Source of the DNA: Oxalobacter paraformigenes
GTDB taxonomy: Bacteria; Pseudomonadota; Gammaproteobacteria; Burkholderiales; Burkholderiaceae_D
DNA length: 53,521 bases
Assembly: GCF_000158475.2 (NCBI RefSeq)
Contig: NZ_KI392030.1
Coordinates: 461,134-514,654, forward strand
Direction: 5' to 3'
Program-made: the position numbers and the translations under genes
Notes under the pieces: generated by a model
What the model was told of the DNA's origin: nothing
The model's input: only the letters and a program-made list of their open reading frames with translations
Database searches by the model: none
Shown: positions 40,920-47,225 of the stretch, in pieces
Position numbering within the stretch: position 1 is the first letter of the stretch
Layout of the letters: each line of letters begins with the position of its first letter

Positions 40920-41726
40920 TTATTTCAAGTGGAGAACGTCTTGCATATCGAAGAGGCCGCTCGTTTTGTCAGTGAGAAAACGGGCTGCACGCAGGCTGCC
41001 TTGTGCATAAGTGGCGCGGCTGGCCGATTTGTGGGTTATTTCGATACGTTCGCCGGTTCCGGCAAAAAGAACCGTGTGATCGCCTACGATATCGCCGCCC
41101 CTTATTGTCGAAAAACCGATTGTTGATGGATCGCGTTCTCCAGTAATGCCTTCCCGGGCATAAATGGCGCATTCCCCGAGGTCGCGACCGATAGCTTTGG
41201 CAATCACTTCGCCCATTTTCAGTGCGGTTCCCGAAGGGGCATCCACTTTATGCCTGTGATGCGCTTCTATCACTTCAATGTCGTATCCTTCGGCAAAATT
41301 CTTTGCCGCGATTTCCAGTAATTTCATGGTGACGTTCACACCTACGCTCATGTTCGGGGCGAATACGACAGGAATTGATGTCGAGGCTGCTGCGATGGCT
41401 TTTTTCCCGTTTTCATCGAAACCGGTTGTGCCAATGATCATTTTGATTTGATGGGCAGCACAATAAGCGAGATGTTCGAGTGTACCGGCAGGGCGGGTGA
41501 AATCGATAACATATTCGGCGTCCCTGAATGCTTTATTCATGTCGGATACGATCGGCACGCCTGTTTTCTCGCCCAGAAACATGCCGGCATCATTGCCGAG
41601 GCCAGGAGAATTCGATGCGTCGAGCGCACCGGTCAGTATGGCATCTTCCGCTTTCAGAACGGCTTCGATCAACATGTGGCCCATGCGGCCATTTGCCCCT
41701 GCAATGGCGATTTTCATTTTATTCAT
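40920..41726 (-). CDS. dapB: 4-hydroxy-tetrahydrodipicolinate reductase
   Basis: Reduces the DapA product in lysine and diaminopimelate synthesis. The 268-aa protein has the nucleotide-binding GANGRMG (residues 10–16), [10 protein letters not shown], and the signature [15 protein letters not shown] with the catalytic His pair and Lys. Its ATG overlaps the bamE stop by 4 bases (ATGA), so translation is coupled. bamE–dapB divergent from fur is a known betaproteobacterial order. Confidence 0.97.
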
Positions 41727-42973
41727 TGGATATTTCCGATCAATTGGTCATTCGGCGATGGCGGCAGCATCCTGCCTATCCGGCTCGGCGTGCTGATAGG
41801 TTCGAAAGTTCCGATATTTTCCGAGGAGTCATTACCGGTTTCTTCCGTATCGTTTTGTCTCGACTCCTGAGTCGAACTTCTGCTAACAGGGCGTTTTATC
41901 CGGTTTGGCCGCCCGGAAACCGTATTCGTCACAGAAGCGCTGACGGGTTCAGGAACGCTGACGGGTTCGGGAGCGCTGACGGGTTCAGGAGCGCTGATGG
42001 GTTCGGGAGCGCTGACCGGTTCGGGGGCGCTGACCGGTTCGGGAGCGCTGACCGGTTCGGGAGCGCTGACCGGTTCAGGAGCGCTGACCGGTTCGGGGGC
42101 GCTGACGGGTTCAGGAGCGCTGACGGGTTCAGGAGCGCTGACCGGTTCGGGGGCGCTGACCGGTTCGGGGGCGCTGACCGGTTCAGGAGCGCTGACGGGT
42201 TCAGGAGCGCTGACGGGTTCAGGAGCGCTGACCGGCTTGGAAACAGGAGATGATTCCGGTACATTGACAGGCGCTATATTGCTGTTTGACCCTGTCGTTT
42301 CCGAAGATGTTTTTACTTCCTGTCCGTTTTTTTCGATCCTGGCTTCCTTTTTGTCGTTTTCTGAGGGTTCATCGTCGGAGGTGATATGGGACAGATAGGC
42401 CGCTTCATCCGGCAAATGGTCGCTTGTCATGCGTTCAACGAGATTGTCGGTAAAGAAAATCACTAACCTGTTAGTCGTTATGGCTCCGTTGGGTTTTTGA
42501 AGGCGGAACAGGTAATCCCAGCGATTGGCGTGAAACATATCGGTTAAAAGAGGGGTTCCCAACACAAAACGGACCTGTTCCTTGGTCATGCCTGGCTGCA
42601 CTTTGGCCAGCATTTCGGCGGAAATGAAATTTCCCTGCTGGACATTGACTTTGTAGGGCGTCAGCATGCTCAGCCATTTTTTCATGCCTGTCGGTTTTGT
42701 ATTCAGTTCATTTTCAGCTTCAGTTGTTACCTTTTCAGGTTGTTTACTGACAACTGATTCTGATATTTCATTTTCTGAGGGGCTTCGTTGGCCGGGGATG
42801 TTCGCAACCGGCTTTTTTTCTGTCTCGACAGAGACAGGCTTGGTGTTTTCGATAGGATCACTTTCGTCAATCAAAGGATTTTTGGAGGCGCAACCGATTA
42901 CCAGAACAGTTGCCGATGTTAGCAGTACCGGTGCGCGAAGATATCGCCACAAGCTGGCCATTTTTTTATGCAT
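41723..42973 (-). CDS. bamE: BamE/OmlA outer-membrane lipoprotein with repeat-expanded tail
   Basis: Lipoprotein of the BAM complex that inserts outer-membrane proteins. The core (about residues 97–190) is standard: [32 protein letters not shown] and [10 protein letters not shown]. The lipobox is VIGC with Cys28. The rest is unusual: a charged linker of about 70 residues before the core, and after it a long tail containing about 16 copies of the hexapeptide PVSAPE (about 250–346) plus a further 70 residues. At 416 aa it is several times longer than E. coli BamE (113 aa). Start is uncertain between 42973 and 42961; a longer form to 43018 is unlikely. The stop overlaps dapB. Confidence 0.92.
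41937..42242. repeat. Tandem array of 18-bp units inside bamE (16 full plus one degenerate)
   Basis: Sixteen contiguous 18-base units from 41937 to 42224 with plus-strand consensus GCGCTGACSGGTTCRGGR, then a degenerate unit to 42242. The array keeps a perfect 18-base period without indels. Unit differences fall almost only at third codon positions of bamE (Ala GCT/GCC, Pro CCT/CCC and CCG/CCC). Only two units change the peptide: one Val to Ile and one Ala to Val. Neighbouring identical units (10/11, 12/13, 15/16) suggest recent duplications. Confidence 0.97.
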
Positions 42974-43001
42974 CACGAAGTTGAATCCCAAGAGCAATTT
43001 A

Positions 43002-43030
43002 TTGAGCAGATTTAACAAACACTATATGAT
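43002..43030 (+). promoter_or_regulatory. Putative fur promoter
   Basis: -35 TTGAGC (43002–43007), 17-base spacer, -10 TATGAT (43025–43030), 55 bases ahead of the fur ATG, in the 111-base gap between fur and bamE. I see no good Fur box here, so autoregulation is not evident. Confidence 0.5.
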
Positions 43031-43084
43031 AAAGCAGATACTAGAATAGTACAGAACCAATTTTGAATTTATAAACTTCTCAAA

Positions 43085-43507
43085 ATGATGAGTAATAATC
43101 CTGCCGACTTGAAAGCAACGGGTCTTAAAGCCACACTTCCCCGATTGAAAATTCTCAACATTTTTCAAAAGAATGCCGAGCGTCATTTAAGTGCCGAAGA
43201 CGTTTACCGGCTGCTTTTGTCCGACAATCTGGAAATCGGACTGGCGACAGTTTATCGCGTATTGACGCAGTTCGAACAGGCCGGGATATTATCACGGAAT
43301 TATTTCGAAACCGGCAAGGCGGTTTTCGAACTGAATGAAGGTACCCACCACGACCATATTGTTTGTGTCGATTGTGGAAGGGTTGAGGAATTTCACGATG
43401 ACGAAATCGAAAAAAGGCAACATGACATTGCGGCCGAAAAGGGTTTTGACATTGTCGATCATACTCTGGCGATTTATGGACGCTGCATTAAATGCCGACA
43501 AAAATAG
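43085..43507 (+). CDS. fur: Ferric uptake regulator Fur
   Basis: Iron-responsive DNA-binding repressor, 140 aa. The winged-helix domain (about 1–85) includes [15 protein letters not shown] and [16 protein letters not shown]; the dimer/metal domain has [11 protein letters not shown] with His88, His89, His91, Cys94 and Cys97, and a second pair, Cys134/Cys137, at the C-terminus. Two ATGs stand in tandem at 43085 and 43088. It diverges from bamE–dapB. A Fur box lies in front of feoA about 7 kb away. Confidence 0.96.

Positions 43508-45569: not shown

Positions 45570-47225
<1,656 letters not shown>

Follow-up and report, generated by a model that had tools for sequence, protein, structure and literature searches.

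The BamE lipoprotein of Oxalobacter paraformigenes carries a C-terminal tail of 226 residues, in which sixteen hexapeptide repeats are followed by a conserved peptide at the very end of the protein. Its gene lies in a stretch of DNA of 53,521 nucleotides that was analysed as a whole and is called the window here. As judged by comparison of sequences, conservation within the tail is strongest in its last 30 residues and not in the repeat; the original prediction did not mention this end. The PVSAPE array is an elaboration seen in one genome: it is the repeat that varies, and the terminal peptide that is conserved. The conservation of this end among related species suggests that the tail is a flexible tether and not random filler. 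We consider it fairly probable, by a modest degree, that the protein combines a lipid-anchored BamE with a disordered linker of adjustable length and a terminal peptide that docks on a putative partner.

The bamE gene is on the minus strand (41723..42973) and encodes 416 amino acids plus stop, starting with MHKKMASL. The protein begins with a signal peptide and lipobox (residues 1–28; 42890..42973, minus strand; LVIGC, Cys28), followed by an N-terminal linker with mostly low predicted confidence (residues 29–111; 42641..42889, minus strand), the BamE domain PF04355 (residues 114–179; 42437..42634, minus strand) and the tail past LPDE (residues 191–416; 41726..42403, minus strand). The domain matched Pfam with 88.9 bits (E 1.9e-25, cut-off 23.2), and the reading frame is intact around the hexapeptide array. 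Cys28 is invariant in 41 aligned sequences, a set from which sequences without a pattern-recognised lipobox had been left out beforehand. Against the NCBIfam equivalog for E. coli-type BamE (NF008585), the protein scored 60.2 bits, under the cut-off of 93, presumably because this model fits the short enterobacterial BamE type. The last 220 residues contain about 20% proline and have a net charge of −20. Downstream lies dapB (40920..41726, minus strand), whose start codon overlaps the bamE stop codon (ATGA), and fur is divergent from bamE on the other side (43085..43507, plus strand). A promoter and terminator scan of 42900–43150 returned one promoter-like site, on the opposite strand and not above shuffles. 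Elsewhere in the window, short GGM repeats are found at the end of a groEL-like frame (45576–45624), which we take to be groEL with the ordinary GroEL tail. The genome, of 2.49 Mb, also contains two tandem short BamE-like frames (C2:1778767-1779490) that scored 26.8 and 22.6 bits, the latter just under the Pfam cut-off.

The array consists of 16 in-phase units of 18 bp (41948..42235, minus strand; 288 bp, residues 247–342), of which 14 encode PVSAPE, one PISAPE and one PVSVPE, and it is followed by a decayed partial 17th unit, PVSASV (41930..41947, minus strand). Tandem Repeats Finder reported an 18-bp unit with 16.9 copies, 91% matches and 0 indels (41932–42235), and the lag-6 residue identity of the tail reached 18.4 standard deviations over 1000 shuffles. 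The original prediction of a 16-copy array on BamE that keeps exact 18-bp phase across 288 bases is thus borne out. As the unit length is a multiple of three, changes in copy number cannot switch the frame; the array differs in this from phase-variable repeats, whose unit is not a multiple of three. Such a stop-free 18-bp repeat is open in several frames, which accounts for the shadow open frames of 111–241 amino acids that cover the array on both strands (41528–42398) and that we took as non-genes.

Base differences from the consensus numbered 20 synonymous and 5 non-synonymous over 17 units, and 19 and 2, respectively, in a hand count of the codons of the 16 full units. These 16 units contain three distinct synonymous changes (CCG/CCC, GCT/GCC and CCT/CCC) and two non-synonymous ones. 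With so few distinct changes, selection on the peptide within the window array is weakly shown. Ordered by codon type and with the partial unit included, the units read ABBCCABDAEECEFGHI, a pattern suggestive of blocks of units having been duplicated repeatedly. All units in which residues have changed lie near the 3' edge of the array, which would fit a middle part homogenised by re-duplication. The PVSAPE array was found in the window genome alone among 13 Oxalobacter genomes searched, where the other matches were weak (the best, at E 0.004, in the BamE tail of genome G010). Two Streptomyces plasmid matches to the array region (72–75% identity) were rejected as compositional. The same verdict was reached when the whole protein was searched against PDB sequences, where a LIM-domain protein containing an Ala/Glu/Thr-rich repeat ranked first; this search was run again with the array removed.

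Hexads of a related kind are present in other members of the genus. The BamE of HC-1 is 64% identical to the window protein across the 190 residues searched, and both HC-1 and G010 carry EPVxxx hexads in the same stretch of the tail as the window array (lag-6 periodicity, z 7.8 and 4.4). They have the EPV core and the stretch in common, while their DNA is different. In the group formed by G004, G005 and G011, two of the three proteins were tested; their lag-6 values were 3.3 (L035) and 1.0 (L036), and EPV hexads were absent from both, showing that the arm does not depend on the array. The tail of G009 holds a different in-frame array, with a 24-bp unit in 4.4 identical copies encoding AEPVKPAV (period 8, 10.6; L016:1902-2007), inside which its contig ends. 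The arrays thus differ between Oxalobacter species, one genome per species being compared.

HC-1 was the most informative about selection on the repeat. Across its nine contiguous hexads (residues 278–331), of which none was dropped since picking units by the EP motif would bias the count, glutamate and proline are kept in 9/9 and valine in 8/9. The codons of this E-P-V core have a piS of 0.75 and a piN of 0.03 (piN/piS 0.04), compared with 0.76 and 0.42 (piN/piS 0.56) for the other three codons, and synonymous divergence is nearly saturated. These figures are indicative, as the register was the best of six and therefore somewhat favourable, and as kinship of the units by duplication was ignored. 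The EPV core of the HC-1 hexads looks constrained. The idea that the peptide is kept while the DNA drifts therefore finds its backing in the core of the HC-1 hexads, whereas the window units, for which it had been put forward, speak for it weakly. The hexads of the window genome, HC-1 and G010 would trace to one old array. The simplest account would be that an EPV hexad array arose long ago in the O. formigenes-like lineage and was recently homogenised in the window species.

The long tail itself extends far beyond the array. The 12 other Oxalobacter genomes gave a BamE match in 11 (none in G012), ten of them complete proteins and one, that of G009, cut by the contig end. Counted from the LPxE that closes the domain, the tail measures 145–257 residues in 11/11 complete BamE proteins from the 13 genomes, and neither tailless close relatives nor frameshifts were found among them; the tail is real and genus-wide, in agreement with the original prediction. 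Elsewhere in the family, 17 BamE proteins, which are those with a locus returned from 23 genomes of other genera, have tails of 14–70 residues. In terms of predicted proteins, the long BamE tail is therefore a trait of the genus Oxalobacter. Within clade A, which comprises six genomes including that of the window, the tail is fairly constant (226–257 residues) and the N-terminal linker varies (82–201), whereas clade B shows the reverse, with tails of 145–204 residues and an N-terminal linker of 65 residues in 5/5. Constant tail length is thus no general rule, and we rejected it as proof of a ruler. BamC is present in 13/13 Oxalobacter genomes, so its loss is not behind the tail, and the idea that the tail replaces BamC was rejected as well.

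In the tail, conservation is concentrated at the end. The last 30 residues (41726..41815, minus strand) have 17/30 columns invariant in the six genomes of clade A, three of which are close relatives, leaving four independent lineages. The linker between the domain and this end barely aligns, with 3/73, 3/123 and 0/36 invariant columns in three segments. Between the window genome, HC-1 and G010, the terminal peptide shows a pN of 0.09–0.15 and a pS of 0.55–0.71, and between species the three linker segments have a pN of 0.35–0.61. A 27-residue motif from this end, searched at E up to 0.1, was found in 6/60 genomes, all of them Oxalobacter and all at the end of BamE. When a longer query was run against the 13 genomes with the limit relaxed to E 1, two weak hits turned up outside bamE (E 0.27 and 0.54); we took these as chance. 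A second Oxalobacter group of five genomes has a different shared end, of the EEDFRAAPNSTMQLHELMQPQ type and alike among its members; a relation between the EEDFRAAPNSTMQLHELMQPQ-type and the window-type end was not detectable with hhalign (probability 0.2%).

Across the order, PF04355 was found in 397/399 genomes. We fetched 60 BamE proteins from among the matches listed, best E-values first, and counted as tail whatever follows the Pfam match. Twenty of these had the longest open frames among the matches listed, as judged by eye: 11 have 195 or more residues past the domain, and in 6, with 70 or fewer residues or with 96, the long frame reflects upstream read-through. The other 40 came from the upper part of the matches listed, chosen regardless of tail after removal of the 20, and have a median tail of 45 residues, with 100 or more in 5 and 200 in none; as the longest had been removed first, this sample understates the share of long tails. 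Named Paraburkholderia loci have tails of about 168–189 residues. Among predicted proteins of the order, long BamE tails are thus widespread and not peculiar to Oxalobacter. BamE had been assumed to be normally a short, single-domain protein, and this did not hold within the order, given the 11/20 long-frame picks with at least 195 residues past the domain and three proteins with Cds6_C domains. Two of these, from one family, have long linkers, two Cds6_C (NTF2-like) domains and the end VLEQIGF (L201 and L202), and one from another family has a single Cds6_C (L144). Some Cds6 proteins carry an L,D-transpeptidase-like name at NCBI. The window protein gave no Pfam match to Cds6_C (PF24125) up to E 1.

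Many of these proteins also end in a short peptide of their own. A terminal peptide like GFFGRMLEKIGF or EKGFFGRMLEKIGF follows a variable linker in 35/76 named non-Oxalobacter loci and in 12/40 of the sampled proteins, and a EKGFFGRMLEKIGF-like end was found in 3/17 complete proteins among the 20 longest. These counts come from a loose pattern that a few of the 40 fit poorly and from an uneven sample, Rhodocyclales-type genomes being plentiful among the named loci. An AlphaFold2 model of one short GFFGRMLEKIGF-ended betaproteobacterial homologue had a helix at the terminal peptide (pLDDT 57–60). Like the window protein, the long-tailed BamE proteins of the order combine the domain with a variable Pro/Ala-rich linker and a conserved short end; unlike it, they have a different terminal sequence, no hexad array that we noticed and, in some, a folded Cds6_C. 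In the BamE/BAM and O. formigenes literature searched, which was partial text from papers outside subscription, no description of a long BamE tail was found, and the portions available of PMC13067283, PMC6604945, PMC2797634, PMC3359395, PMC10135246, PMC12419801 and PMC4764995 describe no BamE tail.

Structure prediction agrees with a folded domain on a flexible chain. AlphaFold2, run on a single chain with the 41-sequence alignment, gave a mean pLDDT of 60.5 and a pTM of 0.36 for the window protein. The BamE domain scored mostly 86–96, with one ten-residue block at 63, the array scored 51–69 without secondary structure, and the part past the array scored 42–59. Foldseek gave 23 matches at E ≤ 0.001, and every one was a BamE chain, those of E. 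coli, N. gonorrhoeae and P. aeruginosa included. The tail had been expected to be extended and flexible, and its predicted disorder and the lack of secondary structure in the array are in line with this. A fully extended chain measures about 0.3 nm per residue. The 96-residue array would then span roughly 30 nm when fully extended, whereas the average length of a disordered chain falls far below this. As a review (PMC13067283) places the inner membrane 14–16 nm below the peptidoglycan, a reach of the tail across the periplasm is possible.

The window protein shares lipobox, domain and fold with known BamE/SmpA/OmlA proteins (PF04355; E. coli, N. gonorrhoeae and P. aeruginosa), and differs from them by its 226-residue tail, 16-unit array and conserved end. 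In P. aeruginosa 7jrk, 154 residues in the sequence compare with 88 in the structure set, so a shorter tail seems to be missing from the structure there too. The position of fur beside bamE is as for P. aeruginosa omlA, according to a title cited in PMC10135246. The BamE-like region of TpgA (NF047726) matched residues 127–178 of the window protein with 23.4 bits, far under the family cut-off of 350. TpgA includes a part that resembles OmpA; the window protein gave no Pfam match to an OmpA-like domain up to E 1 and is in this unlike a TpgA-type fusion. TpgA is called peptidoglycan-binding in PMC6604945. The Glu-Pro-rich composition of the tail is like that of the proline-rich periplasmic arm of TonB (E 0.0032, 17.4 bits against a cut-off of 315), but the window protein has no Pfam TonB domain and has a lipid anchor instead, and the likeness is compositional only. 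The N-terminal lasso of BamC, as described in PMC3359395, is likewise a disordered segment of a BAM lipoprotein with a conserved short motif. It belongs to a different subunit and to the opposite end of the chain.

If the tail is a tether, its parts would act as follows. By homology, the lipid and the BamE domain would anchor the protein to the outer membrane and to the BAM complex, which BamE contacts via POTRA-5 of BamA and via BamD according to PMC13067283. The acidic proline-rich linker, predicted to be disordered, would serve as a long flexible arm with the terminal peptide at its tip, and the conservation of this peptide points to docking on a putative partner. The hexad array with its E-P-V core may be the length-adjustable part of the arm. 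It would grow and homogenise by in-frame tandem duplication, which changes the length and leaves the frame intact, and the copies in the window array were probably re-homogenised recently. The flexible arm put forward in the original prediction is in this respect a reasonable intuition. The location of the partner is a separate matter: one across the periplasm seems unlikely to us, and one within BAM is rather doubtful as well, if a little less so.

The array could also be neutral filler, produced by slippage in an unconstrained linker and in frame only because a conserved peptide lies downstream. This is a minority possibility that we take seriously, since the PVSAPE array occurs in 1/13 genomes of the genus, two proteins of the G004/G005/G011 group lack EPV hexads, G009 has built a different 8-residue array, the 16 window units contain just five distinct changes and the linker diverges so strongly between species. 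Neutral filler does not readily account for HC-1, where the E-P-V core is retained near synonymous saturation while the other positions vary, in a register chosen as the best of six. The conserved end could in turn reflect a constraint at the nucleotide level, imposed by the dapB start that overlaps bamE and by the ribosome-binding site of dapB. The ATGA overlap is found in the window genome, HC-1 and G010, and possibly as a single base in G004. In G005, however, dapB starts beyond the bamE stop and the terminal motif is kept, pS within the motif is 0.55–0.86 in four cross-lineage pairs, and 11 columns are invariant among the first 21 of the 30 terminal codons, upstream of the last nine. The motif is also kept in G011, where a gene for a tyrosine-type integrase directly follows bamE in the place that dapB has in relatives (L036:4326-5576). 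A mobile element seems to use the bamE end as its insertion site in G011. Such elements commonly integrate at the end of a gene and rebuild it, and the case of G011 is therefore given little weight. We rejected the dapB overlap as the cause for most of the motif; this explanation, highly improbable as a whole, is largely refuted for the upstream 21 residues, and the last nine could be affected.

Two further explanations accept a functional end and place it elsewhere. The terminal peptide may fold back on BAM (on BamE, BamD or the periplasmic domains of BamA) instead of crossing the periplasm, as the BamC lasso coils round BamD (PMC13067283). A flexible arm returns as easily as it reaches out, and we hold such a fold-back to be a tentative possibility on the less likely side. 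The terminal pLDDT of 43–59 in the window protein, and that of the betaproteobacterial homologue, speak against it, in what is a weak test on single chains without BamD or BamA, read from pLDDT and secondary structure only; nor does the tail take the place of BamC, which all 13 genomes retain. Alternatively, the tail might be threaded through to the surface of the cell, in the manner of RcsF-type lipoproteins or others that are surface-exposed. RcsF has a proline-rich disordered stretch. It takes a transmembrane orientation in outer membrane proteins that is prevented by loss of BamE, as reported in PMC4942254, and PMC10135246 describes gonococcal BamD at the surface, and BamE in strains without BamD. 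Surface threading is nevertheless very unlikely in our view, as the strong conservation of the terminal peptide is unlike that expected of variable exposed antigens.

A broader form of the tether reading would cover the betaproteobacterial BamE proteins as a whole. These may be two-ended tethers, with a lipid and domain in the outer membrane, a fast-evolving arm (hexad ruler, Pro/Ala linkers or Cds6) and a clade-specific peptide; by docking on a partner in the cell wall or inner membrane, this peptide would position or sense BAM relative to the rest of the envelope. We put this forward as a speculative proposal that is unlikely to hold in full. The tail bears on the question of how cells coordinate the assembly of the outer membrane with their cell wall and inner membrane. 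If a BAM subunit does have an arm with a docking peptide, its partner can be fished out, which would make the question testable outside E. coli. The E. coli BamE is described as a protein of ~12 kDa in PMC13067283; in Betaproteobacteria, BamE can be much larger and more varied than this form.
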